A model generated the notes under the pieces. It had not been told where the DNA came from, made no database searches, and saw nothing but the letters and a program-made list of their open reading frames with translations. From Thermoflexus sp. (GTDB taxonomy: Bacteria; Chloroflexota; Anaerolineae; Thermoflexales; Thermoflexaceae): a DNA stretch of 36,666 nucleotides. The DNA is taken from positions 1 to 36,666 of the forward strand of contig NZ_JANWXB010000345.1 of NCBI RefSeq assembly GCF_025055495.1. Direction: 5' to 3'. The position numbers were made by a program, and so were the translations under genes. This document shows, piece by piece, positions 20,733-29,075 of the stretch (within the stretch, counting starts at the first letter, position 1; every line of letters begins with the position of its first letter).

Positions 20733-21716
20733 ATGCTCAAGCCGGGGACCCTGCTCCACGGCCGCTATAAAATCCTGCGTCCGATCGGACGAGGGGGGAT
20801 GGGCGCCGTCTATGAGGCGGAGGATACCTTGCTGGAAGGCCGCCGCTGTGCCATCAAGGAGATCCTCTTCAGCTTCGAGGCGGATCCGGCCTATCGGGAG
20901 CAGGTCCGCCTGCAGTTCTACCGGGAGGCCAGTGTGCTGGCCCGGCTGGATCACCCGAATCTCCCCAAGGTCTCGGACTATTTCTCCGAGGGCGACCGCG
21001 ATTACCTGGTGATGGACTTCGTCCCCGGCCAGGATCTGCGCGAGATCATCGATGCGGCGAAGGCGAGCGGACGGTTCCTCGATGAGCGGATGGTGCTGAA
21101 CTGGGCCGAGCAGCTCTGCGACGCCCTGGACTACCTGCACCGTCAGGACCCCCCCATCGTGCACCGGGACATCAAGCCCTCGAACATCAAGCTGACGCCT
21201 GATGGCCGCATCAAGCTGGTGGACTTCGGGCTGGTGAAGCTGCTGGCGCCGGACGAGGATCGGACCATCACCATCCTTCAGGGGCGGGGCACCGCCGCGT
21301 ATACCCCGCTGGAGCAATACGGCGGCGATGTGGGCCACACCGACGTTCGCTCCGACATCTACGCCCTGGGGGCCACCCTTTACCATCTGCTGACGAACAC
21401 GCCCCCTCCCGACGCGCGGACGCGGTTCCTGAAGCCCGACGCGCTGGTCCCGCCCCGAGCGATCAACCCGCGGATCTCTCCGCGCGTCGAGCGGGCCATC
21501 CTGAACGCGATGGCCATGCATCCGGATGACCGCCCGCCCAGCATCGCCGCCTTCCGGGCGGAGCTGCTGGGAACCGCCCCGACCAGCCGTCCGGTGGAGG
21601 TGTGGGCGCCTCCGGAGAGCGCATGGGAGATCCTCTGGCGTCGGCATCGGGGGCTGGCCTTCGCCGCCCTGGTCGCCTTCCTGATCGCCCTGATCGCCAC
21701 CCTGTTCAGCCGTTGA
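20733..21716 (+). CDS. Hanks-type serine/threonine protein kinase, C-terminal membrane anchor
   Basis: 327 aa. Kinase domain about 13-275: glycine loop GRGGMG (19-24), catalytic Lys42 (AIKEI), HRDIKPSN (Asp146, Asn151) and DFG (164-166). The region after DFG has GTAAYTPLEQY, a normal activation loop and P+1 segment. A single C-terminal transmembrane helix (about 306-325) follows a basic RRHR, leaving essentially no extracellular sensor domain such as PASTA repeats. The kinase is thus anchored at the inner face and may sense through partners. Start has GAGGA five bases upstream. Substrates unknown; the neighbours do not include an obvious PP2C phosphatase. Confidence 0.93.
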   Translation: MLKPGTLLHGRYKILRPIGRGGMGAVYEAEDTLLEGRRCAIKEILFSFEADPAYREQVRLQFYREASVLARLDHPNLPKVSDYFSEGDRDYLVMDFVPGQDLREIIDAAKASGRFLDERMVLNWAEQLCDALDYLHRQDPPIVHRDIKPSNIKLTPDGRIKLVDFGLVKLLAPDEDRTITILQGRGTAAYTPLEQYGGDVGHTDVRSDIYALGATLYHLLTNTPPPDARTRFLKPDALVPPRAINPRISPRVERAILNAMAMHPDDRPPSIAAFRAELLGTAPTSRPVEVWAPPESAWEILWRRHRGLAFAALVAFLIALIATLFSR

Positions 21717-21921: not shown

Positions 21922-22488
21922 ATGGAGGTTGCCCTGATCGGCGGTTGCGCCCTGCGCGCGCAGGGCCTTCGGTGCCTTTTAGAGGCAGAAGGGCACGCTC
22001 CGATCTGGATTGCCTACACCGCCGCCGATGCCCGAAGCCTTTGTTCGCTCCATCCTCCGGCGAGGCTGTTGCTCGATTTCGCCCTGCCGGATTCCTCGGG
22101 TCCGCGCCTGCTCTATCGCCTGCGCCTCGAACACCCCGCCCTGGATGGCGTTGTGATCCTGGAGGATCTCCATCCCGCCTTTCTCGCCCTGGCCTGGCGG
22201 GCCGGCGCCCGAGCCGCCCTCCCCAATGGCCTCCCCCTGTCGGTTCTGCGCGAACGGCTCCGAGCTTTTCTGGAAGGCTCCGCGTCCTGGTCGCCGGGAA
22301 CGGTGCGGGCGGCGCGAGGGTGGTGGACCCACTACGGGATTCCGTGGGCGAGCCTCTCCCCGCGCCAGCGGGCGGTGGCCCTGGGGATGGCCCGCCCGGT
22401 TGATCCTGGGGCTTCCTCCAAAAACAGGGAAGGAGGAGCCAGACATTCCCTCGTTGATGGGGAAGCGAGCCGGGGCCGAAGGGCATAG
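21922..22488 (+). CDS. degenerate NarL/LuxR-type response regulator, broken HTH
   Basis: 188 aa. Residues 1-115 keep the fold of a receiver: VALIGGCALRAQGLRCLLE, phosphoacceptor-like Asp52 (LLLDFALPDSSG) and a C-terminal LRERLRAFLE helix. The acidic pair that binds Mg is replaced by Gly7-Gly8 and the conserved Lys by Asn102, so phosphorylation is unlikely. LSPRQRAVALGMA (145-157) is the first helix of a LuxR-type HTH, but the frame then becomes unrelated sequence. In the next frame the DNA encodes LGLPPKTGKE...AGAEGHR, which resembles the HTH recognition-helix end. A frameshift with loss of about nine codons explains this. The next gene starts 1 nt after the stop, so translation may be coupled. 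Confidence 0.65.
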   Translation: MEVALIGGCALRAQGLRCLLEAEGHAPIWIAYTAADARSLCSLHPPARLLLDFALPDSSGPRLLYRLRLEHPALDGVVILEDLHPAFLALAWRAGARAALPNGLPLSVLRERLRAFLEGSASWSPGTVRAARGWWTHYGIPWASLSPRQRAVALGMARPVDPGASSKNREGGARHSLVDGEASRGRRA

Positions 22489-22489
22489 G

Positions 22490-23527
22490 ATGGGAACCGA
22501 ATCCTGGACGCGGGAGGTGGAATCCCGGAGCGATGGGCGGCTGCGGGCGCGCTCGTCGCGTGAGGCGGAGGTCCAGGCCCTGCTGGACCGGGCGCGGCCG
22601 GGCTGGCGCTGGGAGCCGATGTTGTTAGAGGTGGACGGGGAGCAGGCGCGGGTCTATGCTGGGCTGGCGATGCGCCTGCGACTAGTGGGGATCTTGGGGC
22701 CGGTGCGGGCGCTGCGGGTGGCGCAAATCGTCGCCCGCTTCGGGGGGCCGGTGCTGGGGGTGGACGTGGGACGGCGCGATTTCCTCCGCCGCGCCCTAGG
22801 GGCCCTGGCCGGGTGGATCGCCCTCCGGAGCGTGGGGCAGCCCGCGGCAGCGGCAGCGGCTCCCCCTCCACCTGCTGCCCCCGGCCTGCCCCCGATCCGC
22901 CAGAGCCGCCTGCTGGAGGGAGAGGCGCGCGAGGCGCTTTTACGGAAATTCCAGGGGCATCCCGACCTGCGGGCTCTGGGGGTGAAAGCGCCGGGGCCGG
23001 AAAGCGAGGCGGTGGCGGTCCTTCACGAGCTGGCCGATGGCAACCGCCTGGAGGCCGTAGCGTGGGTGGAGGGGGAACGGCAAATCATCGTTGCCTATCT
23101 CTTCGACCATCCTCAGGTGCTTGAAACATCTCCTGTTCGGATGCAGAGCGAAGCGTTGCGGATTGCCGCAGAGGGAGAGCGCGCTCGTTTGGTGATGCGC
23201 AGCGTGAACGGGCGGCTCACGGCCGGCACGCGAGCAGGGGATGGAATCCTTATCCAGCCCATGAGTCATTGCCCCGGATGCAGCGGAAACTGCTGGATGG
23301 GGCCTTACGAGACCGATTGCTTGTCATGTGCCTCGTGGAATATTTCCTGCTTAGTGGGCTGTTGTGCGACATGTGCTTTCATGTGCATCGATTGCGCCTT
23401 GGGTAATCTCCGGTCCTGTGCCTACTGCTTTGCGTGCGTGTTTGTGATCTGCCCATGGTGCGGTAATGGTTGCTGCACGCGATGGGTCCATTCCTGCTGC
23501 CCGTGCTCGCCCTGCCCCGGCCCCTGA
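22490..23527 (+). CDS. Cys-rich precursor-like protein with internal twin-Arg motif
   Basis: 345 aa in three parts. Residues 1-90 are a charged domain with no Cys. Residues 95-118 (RRDFLRRALGALAGWIAL) look like a twin-arginine signal, followed by an Ala/Pro linker and a ~110-residue domain (about 138-255). The last part (261-345) has 22 Cys in CxxC, CC and CxxxC spacings. The first 260 residues contain no Cys at all. Architecture recalls halocin C8-type precursors (Tat signal, immunity-like domain, Cys-rich C-terminal peptide), but sequence relationship is unproven. The ATG at 22490 follows the regulator stop by 1 nt with only a weak ribosome binding site. GC content drops in the Cys-rich part. 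Confidence 0.75.
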   Translation: MGTESWTREVESRSDGRLRARSSREAEVQALLDRARPGWRWEPMLLEVDGEQARVYAGLAMRLRLVGILGPVRALRVAQIVARFGGPVLGVDVGRRDFLRRALGALAGWIALRSVGQPAAAAAAPPPPAAPGLPPIRQSRLLEGEAREALLRKFQGHPDLRALGVKAPGPESEAVAVLHELADGNRLEAVAWVEGERQIIVAYLFDHPQVLETSPVRMQSEALRIAAEGERARLVMRSVNGRLTAGTRAGDGILIQPMSHCPGCSGNCWMGPYETDCLSCASWNISCLVGCCATCAFMCIDCALGNLRSCAYCFACVFVICPWCGNGCCTRWVHSCCPCSPCPGP

Positions 23528-23537
23528 GTGACAGGAT

Positions 23538-23693
23538 ATGAATAGCACGGCTCAGGCCTGGATGCGCAATATCTATGTTTTACAAGATGCACCTTATGGC
23601 CTCAGGAAAGCCATTTGGGCGGTCTCGCCTGCTCGAAATCTCCCAGGCTTTTCAGCCGCCATGAGATCGCTATTGCGAGGGGAAGACCTATGA
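23538..23693 (+). CDS. small ORF, 51 aa, coupled to the 4-TM protein gene
   Basis: The ATG at 23538 opens a 51-aa frame whose TGA overlaps the ATG of the next gene (ATGA at 23690). This arrangement suggests translational coupling. The peptide (MNSTAQAWMRNIYVLQDAPYG start, LLRGEDL end) is basic and partly amphipathic with no Cys and no transmembrane segment. Its ribosome binding site is weak (AGGA very close to the ATG). I recognise no family. It lies between the Cys-rich gene and its membrane partner. Confidence 0.4.
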   Translation: MNSTAQAWMRNIYVLQDAPYGLRKAIWAVSPARNLPGFSAAMRSLLRGEDL

Positions 23694-24082
23694 GCCTTAA
23701 GCCCCAGACCGAACGAAGTTTAAAAGTGCTTCACCTTGTAACCAGTGGAGTCCTGGGACTATGGCTATTCACCACTCCTTCGGATCCGCTTGTGGATAAG
23801 CTGGTTATCGGTGGAAGTCTTGTAGCCATCGTCGTCTATGTGCTGAGCTGGGATGAAAAGAGCCGGCGTTTCAGGTTGCCATGGCGGCTTCCTGAGCTCC
23901 TCATATTCACGGTTCCTACGGCGTTATTGTTGCTGACCTTGGCGAGGACTCGATGGGCTTCTCCCGGACAGGCTGACCTGATCCGATGGATCTGGTGGCT
24001 GATTTCCGCCTCGTTCTACCTGAATGCTCTTCTGGTCAAGCATTCAGGAACGCCTTCCAGCTCGCACGCCGATCGAGGCTGA
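23690..24082 (+). CDS. 4-TM membrane protein A next to Cys-rich gene
   Basis: 130 aa with four predicted transmembrane segments: about 14-33 (VLHLVTSGVLGLWLF), 38-55 (LVIGGSLVAIVVYVL), 68-88 (LPELLIFTVPTALLLLTLA) and 98-118 (LIRWIWWLISASFYLNALL). Short, charged loops separate them. Start at 23690 has GAGGGGAAGACCT upstream and overlaps the preceding small ORF stop. Not recognised as a known family. Two other proteins of 132 and 130 aa with the same topology follow the other Cys-rich frames, so a partner role such as immunity, export or anchoring is possible. Base composition is lower in GC than the flanks. Confidence 0.65.
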   Translation: MSLKPQTERSLKVLHLVTSGVLGLWLFTTPSDPLVDKLVIGGSLVAIVVYVLSWDEKSRRFRLPWRLPELLIFTVPTALLLLTLARTRWASPGQADLIRWIWWLISASFYLNALLVKHSGTPSSSHADRG

Positions 24083-24153
24083 TCGATCTCAATCTACGAG
24101 CCAATCGAGATGAAAATCTCTCCCATCGATCATCTTCCATTTAGACGGATCGC

Positions 24154-24339
24154 TTGTCATGTGCCTCGTGGAATCTAAGATGTCTTGTCAATTGCTGCGG
24201 GCCGTGCGCTTTCACCTGCACCAACCTCTGGACCTGCATCGCATGCGCCGTAATCTGGTGCCCCTGGTGTGTCTCTGCGAACTGCTGCTATCGGTGGATT
24301 CTGGACTGCTGTCCCTGTGGGGGATGCTCAGGCCCGTGA
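24154..24339 (+). CDS. Cys-rich peptide copy 2, leaderless duplicate
   Basis: 61 aa from a TTG codon, 16 Cys. It aligns with the Cys-rich tail of the 345-aa protein from its LSCASWN segment to the final GP; both end in CC-P-C-x-x-C. Nucleotides 24142-24174 match 23309-23341 with three differences, and the Glu274 codon GAG is TAG here, so the upstream leader and immunity-like region are absent. No Shine-Dalgarno or ATG is visible. It may be translated from TTG by an unusual route, or be a decapitated duplication remnant. A 4-TM gene follows 30 nt after its stop. Confidence 0.45.
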   Translation: MSCASWNLRCLVNCCGPCAFTCTNLWTCIACAVIWCPWCVSANCCYRWILDCCPCGGCSGP

Positions 24340-24369
24340 AGCGCCTGGAACTCTAACCAAGAGGGTGCA

Positions 24370-24768
24370 ATGTTAGGGATCCATTCTCGACACCTCTGGT
24401 GGCTACGCTTGATTCTGGCCTGGGGCTTCTTCTTGTGGCTGCTGGATCTCGCTGCTCGAGATCCTCGCTCCATCCCTTTGTCGGCATCCTTCTTTCTGAC
24501 CTGGATCGTTGCCTGGCTGGTCGACTCCGCAGCCCGACTGAGCATTCCCTCAGATCGAGAACCACCCTGGCTGTTGACCGCACTGAACACTCTGGTCATC
24601 GGCATAATGGCCTGGATCAACACCTCATGGGCTTCTTTGGGGATACGCGATGGAATGCTCTGGCTGTTTGCGGGATTATACCCATTCAGCCAGCCAAGCC
24701 CATGGATTCGAGCGTGGAAGGATCTCCAAGGGATATGGAGCGCTCGTTCCCTTGAGGAGCGACCCTGA
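24370..24768 (+). CDS. 4-TM membrane protein B next to Cys-rich copy 2
   Basis: 132 aa. Trp-rich transmembrane segments lie at about 9-28, 37-57, 69-92 and 95-108. Start has AAGAGGG five bases upstream. It shares length and topology, not obvious sequence, with proteins A and C. The Cys-rich frame 3 opens four bases after its stop. Unknown function; candidate partner of the Cys-rich peptides. Confidence 0.6.
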   Translation: MLGIHSRHLWWLRLILAWGFFLWLLDLAARDPRSIPLSASFFLTWIVAWLVDSAARLSIPSDREPPWLLTALNTLVIGIMAWINTSWASLGIRDGMLWLFAGLYPFSQPSPWIRAWKDLQGIWSARSLEERP

Positions 24769-24772
24769 TTGA

Positions 24773-24982
24773 ATTCCGCTTCAATCTTCAGACCCTGAAA
24801 TCCTCCAACCGGATTGTTGTCCCTTATGGATAAGTTGCACTGCCTGGCCCGTGATGTTGGGCATATATGCGGCCTGCTGCGCGGCAGGTGGAGCGGTCTG
24901 CTGTGCACATCTGCTCGCTGTGGCTGGAATCGCTGCTGAGATCCGTAGCGCCGCGCAGTCCTGCAGCCCATGCCAACCCTAA
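24773..24982 (+). pseudogene. Cys-rich frame 3, no canonical start
   Basis: The open frame from 24773 (after a TGA at 24770) to the TAA at 24980 encodes about 69 residues with nine Cys including three CC pairs and an AACCAAGGAVCC core, ending SCSPCQP. No ATG, GTG or TTG precedes the first Cys pair; the first standard starts are GTG 24851 and ATG 24854, giving 43 or 42 aa without a ribosome binding site. It may be a relic or use a non-standard ATT start. Its stop overlaps the AAGGAG site of the frame at 24995. It occupies the same position relative to a 4-TM gene as copies 1 and 2. Confidence 0.35.
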
Positions 24983-24994
24983 GGAGCAAGACCG

Positions 24995-25166
24995 ATGTGG
25001 GGAACGTGGATCTGGCGAGGGCTCTGGATTTCCGTGGGCTTTCAGATGTTCTATCTGACCACGGCCTACCCGTCTCCCAATGTGGATTCTGTGTTGGGGG
25101 AGGGTCGCGGAACCGCTTCCGTCGGCAACGATCGCGCCCGAAGGCGCTTTCTTTCGGAGGTTGGAA
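24995..25166 (+). other. possible membrane-protein N-terminal relic
   Basis: ATG 24995 follows a good AAGGAG site by eight bases. Its first ~26 residues (MWGTWIWRGLWISVGFQMFY) are hydrophobic and Trp-rich like the start of 4-TM protein B. The frame then loses membrane character and overlaps the gene at 25167 out of frame. It could be a truncated duplicate, or a short leader peptide. I would not call it a confident gene. Confidence 0.2.
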
Positions 25167-25559
25167 ATGACCACTTCCCGTCAGGGAACCGGGCCCTGGA
25201 AACGCAGGGTCCTTGCCTCCCTCCTCGCCTTTCTGATCCTCGTCCATCTCTGGCTGTATCGGCAGCACCCTCGGCCGGAGATCCTGTGGGGCGGGATCGG
25301 TGCCCTTCTGATCATTGGCCCCCTGCTCTTCGAAGGGTGGATCTCCCCTCGCCTCTGGATCCGGATCCGGGCCGCCTTGGGGATCGTCGGCCTCACTCTT
25401 CTCACCTGGCTCAGCGCGTGGCCGATGGCCTCCCCTTCGGCCCGGGGAGGTCTGGTTCTGATTTACGGGGCCGGGGTTCTGGGGCTGCTATATGAGCTGG
25501 TCTCGGGGAGGCCGATCGGGCAGGCTTTGCGCCGAGGATCCGAGATCGAGAGGAAGTAG
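25167..25559 (+). CDS. 4-TM membrane protein C
   Basis: 130 aa with four transmembrane segments, about 14-32 (VLASLLAFLILVHLWLY), 38-58 (EILWGGIGALLIIGPLLFEGW), 68-89 (LGIVGLTLLTWLSAW) and 95-115 (LVLIYGAGVLGLLYELV). Start at 25167 has a strong GGAGG six bases upstream; the longer frame from 25080 lacks such a site. Length and topology match proteins A and B. GC content returns to the window average here. The 266 bases after its stop carry no credible gene. Function unknown. Confidence 0.65.
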   Translation: MTTSRQGTGPWKRRVLASLLAFLILVHLWLYRQHPRPEILWGGIGALLIIGPLLFEGWISPRLWIRIRAALGIVGLTLLTWLSAWPMASPSARGGLVLIYGAGVLGLLYELVSGRPIGQALRRGSEIERK

Positions 25560-25825: not shown

Positions 25826-26038
25826 ATGCGACCCCTTCCTTTTCGAGCTGTGCTGGTGGAGGCGGTGGTTAGCGGGTTGGTCTTCTTTGTGGTGGGATTG
25901 TCCATACGGCTGTGGATGGATGGACGGACGCTGCAAGAGGCCTTTTCGATCGCGCTGGTTGGCGCCATCGGTTTCGGGATCGCTTGGACTGGCTTTCACG
26001 TTCTCCTTCGTCGCACCGTCCGCCGGCACACACGGTGA
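25826..26038 (+). CDS. small 2-TM protein (paralogue 1)
   Basis: 70 aa: transmembrane segments at about 8-29 (VLVEAVVSGLVFFVVGLSI) and 41-61 (SIALVGAIGFGIAWTGFHVLL), ending in a basic RRTVRRHTR tail. Start 25826 is supported by GAGGAG seven bases upstream; the longer frame from 25754 is not. The 88-aa product at 26987 has the same plan (helix, charged loop, GAIG/GAAIG helix, basic LLRR/ILRR tail). Function unknown. Confidence 0.55.
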   Translation: MRPLPFRAVLVEAVVSGLVFFVVGLSIRLWMDGRTLQEAFSIALVGAIGFGIAWTGFHVLLRRTVRRHTR

Positions 26039-26230: not shown

Positions 26231-26800
26231 CTACGCTTCGCCCGGAAAGCGATTGCAGCCTGCGCGCGGGGGGCTTCCGCTCAGACAATCGCCGGCGAAA
26301 CGATCTCCTCCACCCGGTCCACCCGGGCTGTAGACGGGGAGGTCACCTCCACCACCAGATCCGGCACCCCACAGGCCTGCTCCCCGATGCGGTCCGTGTG
26401 CTCCTTCGCGATGAAGAAGAGATTGGGCTCCCGGATCTTCCCCGGCCACAGGCGCACGGGCAGCGGGGCGATCCGAAACATGCCCTAGGTCATGCTCCAG
26501 GCAGAGCAGGACTCCCTTGCCGGCCCATGACCGTCCCTCCGTCCTCATGCAACGCGCAGGCGATCCCCTTTGACAACAGGCTGGACAATCGGCTCGCTGT
26601 TCGATCGCCTCCATTGCGGCGGTCTCGCTCCGTCGCGGGATCGGCTCGTCCTCTACCGGCTCCAGATGCCCCTCGATCGCTTCCCGAAAGTCCCTTAGGG
26701 CCTCCTTGACGGTCTCTCCCTTGCGGATGCGACCAGGCAGCAAGGGCACGCTGAGTATGCCCACCTCCTTGCTCAGCTCCAGCATCGTTTGGAATCGCAC
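26231..26800 (-). CDS. HicB-like antitoxin fused in frame to remnant sequence
   Basis: 189-aa frame from GTG 26800, which has GGAGGAGG five bases upstream. The first ~65 residues match the HicB antitoxin plan: RFQTMLELSKEVG, VPLLPGRIRKGETVKEALRDFREAIEGHLEPVEDE. From about residue 75 on the frame is low-complexity Arg/Gly/Ala sequence that overlaps an Uma2 relic out of frame. HicB normally represses and neutralises an adjacent HicA RNase; no hicA is visible on either side, and the antitoxin probably lost its partner and its own stop. An alternative is that HicB is still made with an aberrant tail. Confidence 0.45.
   Translation of the reverse strand: MRFQTMLELSKEVGILSVPLLPGRIRKGETVKEALRDFREAIEGHLEPVEDEPIPRRSETAAMEAIEQRADCPACCQRGSPARCMRTEGRSWAGKGVLLCLEHDLGHVSDRPAARAPVAGEDPGAQSLLHREGAHGPHRGAGLWGAGSGGGGDLPVYSPGGPGGGDRFAGDCLSGSPPRAGCNRFPGEA
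26281..26520 (-). pseudogene. Uma2-family (DUF820) nuclease remnant
   Basis: On the minus strand the segment RIAPLPVRLWPGKIREPNLFFIAKEHTDRIGE, then DLVVEVTSPSTARVDRVEE, is the core of Uma2 endonuclease-like proteins (here broken into shorter quotes by position 26281-26481). Just upstream, LEHDLGHV is encoded in another frame, so a frameshift lies near 26480. The N-terminal half and the usual C-terminal WLVDP region are missing. Uma2 proteins are abundant restriction-like nuclease-fold proteins in Chloroflexota and cyanobacteria. This copy is inactive. Confidence 0.6.
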
Positions 26801-26986
26801 GAGAACCTCCTCCGAGCTTCGGCGAACATTTGCTCCACGACCTTGCTTCGAAAAGCTAGGCGATCTAAGATGATAAGGGAACCCCAAGGGTCGCCGCGGC
26901 GCGGCCCGGATTCGAGGAGGTTCTTTCTGAACACTGGAGGCGGCCGAGGCCAGCGGCATGCCAAACCGGGCCAGAGGAGGAAATCC

Positions 26987-27253
26987 ATGCAGCGCTCTAA
27001 CCCTATGCAGCGCCTGCAAGAGGGCGTCGCTCGAGTTCCGGCCCTGCCCGTCCTCGTGGCCCTTACGCTGAGCGCCGCAGTAGGGTCCATCATCGCTGGC
27101 GTGGGGCTCGAAGGGCTGAGGGTCGAAGAGGTCCTCCCCCGCGCGCTGAGCAGCGCGGTCGGCGCGGCGATCGGTGGGACGCTCTTTTACTTCTACTTCC
27201 TGATCCTGCGCCGGATCCGAAAGCCAACCAATGGATCACTCCCACACTCTTAG
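26987..27253 (+). CDS. small 2-TM protein (paralogue 2)
   Basis: 88 aa, segments at about 19-40 (LPVLVALTLSAAVGSIIAG) and 53-75 (ALSSAVGAAIGGTLFYFYFLIL), then a basic LRRIRKPTN tail. Start 26987 has GAGGAGGAAATCC upstream; the longer frame to 26789 overlaps the HicB ribosome binding site on the other strand and is rejected. Topology and tail resemble the 70-aa protein at 25826. The two flank the HicB/Uma2 remnant. Function unknown. Confidence 0.55.
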   Translation: MQRSNPMQRLQEGVARVPALPVLVALTLSAAVGSIIAGVGLEGLRVEEVLPRALSSAVGAAIGGTLFYFYFLILRRIRKPTNGSLPHS

Positions 27254-27365: not shown

Positions 27366-29075
27366 TCAGGGATGGGCTTCCATCACCCGCCGGCGGACGG
27401 CCTCGGGATCCGCCTGACGAAGCGCTTCCTCCGCCAGCGCGCGGGCTTCCGCCATCGACCAGCGGCGGACAGCGGCTTTGACCTCCGGCACCCGCACTGG
27501 GTTCACGCTGAGCTCCTGCACCCCCAGCCCGATCAGCACCGGCACCGCGACGAGATCCCCCGCCAGCTCCCCGCAGACGCCGACCCACTTCCCGGTCCCC
27601 TCCGCCGCGGCGGTCACGTGGCGGATCAGGCGCAGCACCGCCGGGTGCAATCCGTCGGCCAGCCCGGCCACCGCCGGATTCGTCCGATCGGCCGCCAGGG
27701 TGTATTGCGTCAGGTCGTTGGTCCCGAGGCTGAAGAAATCCACCCAGGGCAGGAAATGCTCCGCTAACAGCGCGGCCGCCGGCACTTCCACCATCATCCC
27801 CACCTGCAGGTCCGACGGCAGGGGATGACCTTCTGCGGCCAGGTTCGAGCGCACTTCCTCGAAGAACGCGCGGAGCCAGCGGATCTCCTCCACGGTGCTC
27901 ACCATCGGGAACATAATCCGCAGCGGGAACCCCGCCCCGGCGCGGAGCAACGCCCGAAGCTGCTGACGCAGCAGGTCCGGATGCTGCCGGGAGAGCCGCA
28001 CGCCCCGCACGCCCAGGAACGGGTTGGCCTCCGGAGGCATGGGGAGGTAGGGCAGCGGCTTGTCCCCACCGACATCCAGGGTGCGCACCACCACCGGCTT
28101 TCCCCCCATGGCCTCCAGGAGCGCTCGGTAGACGTTGATCTCCTCCTCCTCGGTGGGGGCCGCTGCTCGATCCAGATAGAGGAACTCCGTGCGCAACAGG
28201 CCGATGCTATCGGCCCCCTTCTGGAAGGCCTGGCGGGCATCCTCCAGGCTCCCCACATTGGCGGCCACCTCGATGCGCACGCCATCCCGGGTCTGGGCCG
28301 GCTCATGGGCCACGGCCTCCGCCTGCGCCCGCTCCTGAAGCCACAACATCCGCCGGGCCTGAGCCTGCCGCACGGTCTCTGGCTCGGGCTCCACCTCAAT
28401 CCATCCTCCCTCGCCGTCCACCAGCAAGGGCGCCCCATCGGGAACCGTTCGGAGGGCTGCGCCGACCGCCACTACCGCAGGAACCCCCAGGCGGCGGGCC
28501 AGGATGGCGGCGTGGGCGGTGGGTCCCCCTCCTTCCGTGACGAAGGCCAGCACCCGCTGGGGGTCCAGGGTGACGGTTTCCGAGGGCAACAGATCATCGG
28601 CCACCACCACCACGGGGTGATCGGGCATCCGGGGCGCCTCCGGACCGCCCGCCAGATGGCGCAGCACCCGATTCCCCACATCCCGCACATCGGCCGCCCG
28701 GGCCTGAAAATAGGGATCCGGCAGCGCCGATAGCTGAGCGGCGAAGGCCTCCACGGCCTTCTGCCACGCCACCTCCGCGGAGGCCCCTGCGGCGAGCTCC
28801 GCTTCCACCGCAGCCATCAGCTCCGGATCCTGGAGCATCAGCTCCTGGGCCTCGAAGATCGCCAGCTCCTCGGGAGACAGGCGCTCTCGCTGGGCCTCCC
28901 GCAACGCGGCCAGCTCCGCCGCCGCCCGCTCTTGGGCTTCTTGCAGCCGCATCCGCTCGACCGCTGCATCCTCCCCTTGCATCCGCATCGCAACCGGGAG
29001 AGCCCGCCGGAACCACCAGGCCGGGCCTAGGGCGATCCCTGGGGAAGCCGGGAGCCCCTGTAGACGACGGCTCAT
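27366..29075 (-). CDS. ptsI: PEP-protein phosphotransferase, enzyme I of the PTS
   Basis: 569 aa, normal length. N-terminal region binds HPr; the phosphorylated His188 lies in GGPTAHAAILARRLGVPAVV. The PEP-binding barrel carries SLGTNDLTQYTLAADRTNPAV and the catalytic Cys501 in VCGELAGD. It transfers phosphate from PEP to HPr. Its ATG overlaps the HPr stop (ATGA), so translation is coupled. No sugar-specific EII genes are in the window. With dhaM nearby, the likely end acceptor is the dihydroxyacetone kinase. Cytoplasmic. Confidence 0.95.
   Translation of the reverse strand: MSRRLQGLPASPGIALGPAWWFRRALPVAMRMQGEDAAVERMRLQEAQERAAAELAALREAQRERLSPEELAIFEAQELMLQDPELMAAVEAELAAGASAEVAWQKAVEAFAAQLSALPDPYFQARAADVRDVGNRVLRHLAGGPEAPRMPDHPVVVVADDLLPSETVTLDPQRVLAFVTEGGGPTAHAAILARRLGVPAVVAVGAALRTVPDGAPLLVDGEGGWIEVEPEPETVRQAQARRMLWLQERAQAEAVAHEPAQTRDGVRIEVAANVGSLEDARQAFQKGADSIGLLRTEFLYLDRAAAPTEEEEINVYRALLEAMGGKPVVVRTLDVGGDKPLPYLPMPPEANPFLGVRGVRLSRQHPDLLRQQLRALLRAGAGFPLRIMFPMVSTVEEIRWLRAFFEEVRSNLAAEGHPLPSDLQVGMMVEVPAAALLAEHFLPWVDFFSLGTNDLTQYTLAADRTNPAVAGLADGLHPAVLRLIRHVTAAAEGTGKWVGVCGELAGDLVAVPVLIGLGVQELSVNPVRVPEVKAAVRRWSMAEARALAEEALRQADPEAVRRRVMEAHP

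Follow-up and report, generated by a model that had tools for sequence, protein, structure and literature searches.

A putative polymorphic family of Tat-exported cysteine-rich bacteriocins with membrane partners and orphan tails, seen in a partly decayed Thermoflexus locus

The window analysed here is the 36,666-nucleotide contig NZ_JANWXB010000345.1 of the hot-spring bacterium Thermoflexus sp. (Chloroflexota; assembly GCF_025055495.1), in which positions 22490-25559 encode, in order, a 345-aa precursor, a small transmembrane (TM) protein, a cysteine-rich (Cys-rich) frame, a second TM protein, a further Cys-rich frame and a third TM protein. We read this locus, with a probability of roughly 0.6, as a partly decayed polymorphic system of Cys-rich bacteriocins exported by the twin-arginine translocation (Tat) pathway, equipped with membrane immunity proteins and spare cassettes for swapping. 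The sequence-based grounds are a constant leader, variable tails, a Tat motif, a conserved neighbourhood, arrays of orphan tails, co-variation of tails and TM proteins, and tail-TM pairs that recur in a different order; from these we infer that the tails are exported by Tat in living cells, form disulfides, are cleaved off and kill, that the partners confer immunity, and that cassettes recombine.

The precursor (22490-23527; + strand, as are all window features below unless stated) begins with a truncated thioredoxin-like leader domain whose CxxC stretch is gone (22490-22771), as assigned from the family alignment, the comparison with the related locus L004 and the model of an intact relative. 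An internal Tat-like signal, GRRDFLRRALGALAGWIAL...AAAAA, follows at a motif position shared with the relatives (22772-22870). The Cys-free middle domain (22871-23263) is predicted to be alpha/beta and resembles the middles of L030/L056 and Thermomicrobium roseum, and the C-terminus is the Cys-rich tail 1 (23264-23527). All 22 Cys of the protein lie within its last ~87 residues. The first-pass annotation had described three cassettes with 22, 16 and 9 Cys, and these Cys-rich frames were recovered within 22490-23527 and at 24145-24339 and 24773-24982. They are not of equal rank: only tail 1 belongs to a full precursor, and frames 2 and 3, which have no ATG or GTG start ahead of the Cys region and no export signal, are orphan tails. 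Orphan tail 2 is homologous to tail 1, with 72% identity over 78 nt, 59% identity to the precursor tail and z = 16.5 over composition-matched shuffles. It also shares 40% identity over 45 aa (3e-9) with a Cys-rich open reading frame (ORF) of genome G347 that likewise precedes a TM gene. The degenerate tail 3 resembles tail 1 weakly (z = 3.0, reached by 7 of 1000 shuffles). Shuffled downstream sequence yields such a Cys-rich stretch 0.00-0.27 times per region, and none for the window.

The ~130-aa membrane proteins are present at 23690-24082 (predicted cognate partner or immunity protein of tail 1), 24370-24768 (predicted partner of orphan tail 2) and 25167-25559 (predicted partner of orphan tail 3). 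The four helices ascribed to each of them proved approximate, with 3, 3 and 4 predicted by a simple hydropathy scan rather than a trained predictor, and the gene starts given here are predicted ones. A purine-rich stretch lies just 5' of the ATG in each of the three genes. The TM proteins match no Pfam or NCBIfam family, and no homologue of the 24370 protein was detected outside the window.

Comparison of related loci showed a shared layout of a response regulator, a precursor and a small multi-TM protein. The relatives' precursors combine a thioredoxin-like domain, an internal Tat motif, a variable middle and a variable Cys-rich tail, and the response regulator lies 5' of the precursor in T. 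roseum, L050, L053, L057, L058, L084 and L093. The leader stays constant while the tails are unrelated, across Chloroflexota and a metagenome-assembled genome (MAG) of Bacillota. The tails of relatives are wholly dissimilar; their exported parts hold about 6 to 26 Cys, and the tail Cys number is even in 16 of 19. A small TM ORF (50-170 aa, at least 2 predicted TM helices, start at most 400 bp downstream) follows 15 of the 19 precursors with Cys tails and 4 of 65 control genes, the controls being the other soluble-protein genes of the same loci (Fisher 8e-10). The conserved neighbourhood, together with the co-variation described next, supports the proposed plan of a secreted Cys-rich precursor with a membrane partner.

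Tail similarity and TM-protein similarity, scored by composition-controlled alignments, are correlated (Mantel r 0.48, p 1e-4), both within Thermoflexus alone (r 0.64, p 0.004) and in the other genomes (r 0.34, p 0.015); these p-values, like that for the neighbourhood, are optimistic, since the loci share kinship and phylogeny is ignored. A few pairs of similar tails, such as window tails 1 and 2, stand beside unlike partners, so that the correlation, though strong, is imperfect. The 22-Cys type of window tail 1 recurs in L052 of genome G276, and directly after it comes a homologue of the TM protein at 23690 (E 9.9e-5 in the genome search, z 12.9).

Orphan arrays of the same kind are found in Thermomicrobium, so that their presence in the window is no isolated accident. 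T. roseum DSM 5159 has the precursor TRD_RS12315 after a response regulator and before five small TM proteins; of the four gaps that separate the TM genes, three contain clear, unannotated orphan Cys tails. Three further genomes (G174, G471 and G473) are called Thermomicrobium sp. by similarity to the named T. roseum record. An orphan tail between TM genes of G174 retains ~70 aa of the precursor middle domain. The best match of its TM protein (z 30, equalled by no other) is the partner encoded beside the most similar orphan tail of T. roseum. TM4 of G174 matches TM2 of T. roseum (z 48), and the gene order differs. The tail type on the full precursor of G174 recurs in G473 as an orphan that keeps its TM partner (z 67), and the 'PPWGP' tail type in G471 and G473 again precedes a TM4-type partner (z 57 in G471, z 9.6-18 in G473). 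Cognate pairs thus recur re-ordered in G471 and G473, so that a pairing predicted from one genome was found in others. Judged by these matches, tail type and TM type travel together between species despite the changed order.

The leader comprises the first ~115 aa and has 10 matching places in one complete Thermoflexus genome. Outside Thermoflexus it is rarer, occurring in 14 of 400 sampled Chloroflexota genomes plus the one Bacillota MAG. Intact copies start with MxRYLLFDSGCxxC, and 22 of 26 relatives have the CxxC, which the window copy lacks. The AlphaFold model of an intact relative has a predicted local distance difference test score (pLDDT) of about 95 over residues 1-97, with the order b-a-b-a-b-b-a-a, and its top Foldseek matches are mostly thioredoxin-fold proteins, though with E no better than 0.016, probably because the remainder of the query is of low confidence. 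Against the PDB, a leader sequence profile gave only weak matches, none of them a thioredoxin. The middle domain, residues 131-200, is predicted to be alpha/beta with a pLDDT of about 65-90. A fold of the whole window protein was set aside, its mean pLDDT being 62.5 and its Foldseek matches meaningless. In its intact form the leader may resemble the DCC1-like thiol-disulfide oxidoreductases (PF04134) in its N-terminal CxxC and a probable thioredoxin-like fold; unlike them, it scores under the Pfam gathering cut-off (for example 18.2 vs 27.8 bits) and is fused ahead of an internal Tat signal.

The twin-Arg-like signal noticed earlier in the 345-aa protein is real as a motif, GRRDFLRRALGALAGWIAL, yet it is internal and not N-terminal, standing behind a ~95-aa N-terminal domain. 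An RR-x-F/L-L Tat-like motif occupies this fixed place in 23 of 26 relatives and is followed by a hydrophobic stretch; two relatives reach the cut-off of TIGR01409 (TAT_signal). Genes for TatC and VKOR are present in the same genome as the window.

The closest curated counterparts are fulvocin C-related proteins. The leader protein of L032 (Ktedonobacteria-like) gave the best curated match within the leader family, NF033852 at 107.9 bits vs a cut-off of 35. Streptomyces plasmid proteins annotated 'bacteriocin fulvocin C-related' carry the same N-domain as the leader, with 41-46% tblastn identity over the N-terminal ~70-85 aa (queries L030 and L023). Like the window precursor, the Streptomyces plasmid proteins and L032 begin with a thioredoxin-like domain and end in a Cys-rich tail. 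The window protein and its tail gave no match to the NF033852 profile. A bacteriocin, as first suggested, still fits, in that the leader bears curated fulvocin C-related tails elsewhere, whereas the proposed halocin C8 type does not: TIGR04449 (halocin_C8) had no match in 301 Chloroflexota genomes, with a working positive control in Haloferax, and scored at best 10.9 bits vs a cut-off of 24 on a relative. Membership in the halocin C8 family was rejected on the missing profile match. The halocin C8 precursor ProC8 is exported by the Tat pathway and its C-terminal Cys-rich hydrophobic peptide is freed after export (PMC11509114). The window precursor is similar to ProC8 in size and likewise has a predicted Tat signal before a Cys-rich C-terminus. 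They differ in that the immunity peptide HalI lies inside ProC8, whereas the likely immunity protein here is a separate, co-varying membrane protein, and in that the thioredoxin-like leader and the orphan cassettes are features of the present system.

The genetic logic is like that of polymorphic toxins. MafB proteins of the MafB/MafI systems have a constant N-terminus and a variable C-terminus, with the partner gene directly downstream, and are accompanied by silent C-terminal cassettes that lack a start codon and each have their own partner gene (PMC4287609). The constant leader, variable tail, adjacent partner, startless orphans and joint exchange found here match these hallmarks and are the reason for a polymorphic toxin-immunity reading. 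Like MafB, contact-dependent growth inhibition (CDI) and Rhs systems, the family has a conserved N-terminal region with unrelated tails between paralogues, a co-varying partner gene immediately downstream and, in the window, T. roseum and G174, downstream orphan C-terminal cassettes homologous to the precursor. It differs from them in its leader, in a Tat motif for export instead of type II, V, VI or VII secretion, and in the small Cys-rich tail. No sequence relation to MafB, CdiA or Rhs was seen, no direct comparison having been made. CDI ionophoric toxins are membrane-acting polymorphic C-termini, and their CdiI proteins are small (72-100 aa), very hydrophobic and highly polymorphic (PMC11630599). 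By analogy, the predicted partners here would be small, hydrophobic, variable cognate membrane proteins like CdiI. The CDI ionophores are five-helix domains on giant Gram-negative surface proteins, whereas here Cys-rich tails sit on ~350-aa Tat-type precursors. No description of this layout was found in the halocin and fulvocin literature, and the accessible part of a 2012 polymorphic-toxin survey contains no mention of twin-arginine, the Tat pathway, thioredoxin or cysteine-rich.

On these grounds, a response regulator would control the precursor, whose conserved thioredoxin-like domain would remain cytoplasmic while the folded, disulfide-rich tail would be exported through the internal Tat signal and then released. 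Once released, the tail would act on the membranes of competitors, for the most part related bacteria. The product of the next gene, the multi-TM protein, would sit in the producer membrane and neutralise the matching tail only. Orphan tail and TM pairs would be non-exportable; they could protect against other types and supply donor sequence, from which recombination would swap the tail, and its partner, of the full precursor. The Tat pathway exports folded proteins, so a thioredoxin-like domain ahead of the signal could aid disulfide formation before export. More tentatively, and with less confidence than we attach to the reading of the locus itself, the family may form a new class of polymorphic bacteriocins in which an in-cis thioredoxin-like domain folds a disulfide-rich toxin in the cytoplasm for Tat export in the folded state, and silent tail and membrane-immunity cassettes are recombined into the precursor, changing its specificity; such a class would occur in Chloroflexota, thermophiles among them, and have relatives in Actinomycetota and Bacillota.

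The arrangement seems to be an undescribed means of weapon exchange among bacterial competitors. The polymorphic toxins known to have swap cassettes are large surface proteins or proteins secreted by type II, V, VI or VII systems. Here the same evolutionary logic would apply to small Cys-rich bacteriocin-like peptides with Tat signals, in a phylum in which such weapons are little studied. In T. roseum, a thermophile available in culture, the orphan 'hypothetical proteins' TRD_RS12290 to TRD_RS12315 would gain a testable function, many natural peptide/immunity pairs are on offer, and an oxidoreductase fused before a Tat signal suggests a route to fold disulfide-rich peptides.

Several results weigh against the bacteriocin reading. 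Cys tails without TM neighbours, which the first-pass annotation would have taken as speaking against its plan, occur only in a minority: 4 of 19 have no TM gene within 400 bp, one of these being cut by a contig end. The optimism of the p-values given above counts on the same side. Window-type tails match no curated bacteriocin profile, and at neither of the two Streptomyces loci of fulvocin type that were inspected was an obvious multi-TM partner or an orphan array seen. In Thermoflexus, some leader copies are attached to proteins that are not Cys-rich, two of them with HExxH metallopeptidase-like motifs, so the leader alone is not a sign of a bacteriocin. Several Thermoflexus precursor copies are pseudogenes. 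The window copy itself is partly decayed, having lost the leader CxxC and the DNA-binding part of the regulator, and the in-cis folding step therefore does not apply in that form to this copy.

This decay was traced by comparison with L004. The stretch at 21922-22488 is a response-regulator or LuxR-type remnant with a weak Pfam Response_reg match (E 0.0017), in which the receiver-like part is kept and the DNA-binding helix-turn-helix (HTH) part is deleted. At the DNA level it is 74% identical to the regulator gene of L004, which is intact and encodes 227 aa, and it lacks ~220 bp where the HTH lies. A second deletion relative to L004 took away the original start of the window leader together with its CxxC. 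Since both the CxxC and the DNA-binding part are gone, the window copy may be poorly expressed or dying. The array could even consist for the most part of pseudogene debris left by an old tandem duplication, functionless now, which would be compatible with any reading of the family; the same losses, the degenerate tail 3 and the pseudogenes in sister genomes point that way. This is unlikely on balance, though it carries appreciable weight, as the reading frames of the precursor and of all three TM proteins are open, sequences resembling ribosome-binding sites (RBS) accompany the TM genes, and the same orphan arrays stand in Thermomicrobium. The window leader has dN 0.16 / dS 0.59 vs L004, a further point against debris, with part of this divergence older than the deletions.

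A second alternative concerns the membrane proteins, which might be export, processing or membrane-anchor partners instead of immunity proteins, the tails still being secreted effectors. TM genes that directly follow the tails and co-vary with them would suit such a role, and dedicated membrane helpers are common in bacteriocin loci. A helper should serve many tails, yet the partners vary as much as the tails do; they are also kept beside silent orphan tails that cannot be exported, and some loci have separate ABC transporters. We therefore regard a helper role as distinctly unlikely. Slightly less probable still is silent-cassette variation of a surface or secreted structural protein, following the logic of pilins or variable lipoproteins, with non-toxic variable domains as tails. 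It would account for the constant leader, the variable tails and donor cassettes that lack a start and a signal, and the window tail shows no recognisable toxic domain; but a membrane partner swapped along with each tail would be unexpected, and homologous leaders bear curated bacteriocin tails. A Tat-exported metal-binding or redox domain for metal trapping or electron transfer, with the membrane proteins as accessory subunits, is very improbable despite the very high Cys content and the CxxC of the thioredoxin-like leader in 22 of 26 relatives, because both Cys spacing and Cys number vary without constraint from one paralogue to the next (6 to 22 Cys across the tails compared), the tails are poor in His, Asp and Glu, rich in hydrophobic residues and devoid of a conserved metal motif, and the cassette arrays are left unexplained.

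The base composition of the array is distinct. The G+C (GC) content is 58.2% in the tail and 57.6% in the array (~57% for the region) vs 66% overall, in agreement with the lower GC from which acquisition had been proposed. GC-poor tails are also seen in other genomes, relative to those genomes, and the lower value is thus no proof of recent acquisition. A promoter and terminator scan gave nothing above chance.

An ABC-2 permease and ATPase lie downstream of the precursor in two loci, L053 and L084, after the TM protein in L053, and are possibly a dedicated export or self-protection transporter. In L014 and L048 (T. tengchongensis, G208), a 12-Cys precursor is immediately followed by an FtsX/MacB-like permease of ~930 aa and an ABC ATPase, and L009 has a permease similar to this one. 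A 13-Cys protein with leader, Tat motif and Cys-rich part follows an S8 serine peptidase near response regulators on plasmid 3 of Rubrobacter radiotolerans (L101). An S8 peptidase also lies two genes ahead of the regulator in T. roseum and could be a processing protease. In L042 and L044 (G208, around 2.393-2.400 Mb), the leader is joined to HExxHxxGxxH metallopeptidase-like proteins in tandem, partly broken copies. The window-type tail of L052 (10500-11680; G276 C75) stands behind a sequence resembling the N-terminus of SurA/peptidyl-prolyl isomerase instead of the usual leader, and is frameshifted.

Two smaller membrane proteins are encoded downstream of the window array. The 2-TM protein at 25826-26038, whose gene has an RBS-like sequence upstream, is a homologue of the 2-TM protein directly after the Cys tail in L050 of G276 (phmmer E 6.7e-7). 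The second, at 27005-27253, is related to it (phmmer E 1.3e-4) and is a possible further orphan partner. Just upstream of the regulator remnant, 20733-21716 (+) encodes a serine/threonine protein kinase-like protein with a C-terminal TM helix, and a PtsI-like phosphoenolpyruvate-protein phosphotransferase gene (27366-29075, - strand) borders the array. Between the two 2-TM genes, a frame at 26635-26870 (- strand), LVRFQTMLELSKEVGILSVPLLPGRIRKGETVKEALRDFREAIEGHLE, resembles a HicB-type antitoxin remnant, and this stretch has 75% DNA identity to one near a leader copy in T. sinensis (L009).

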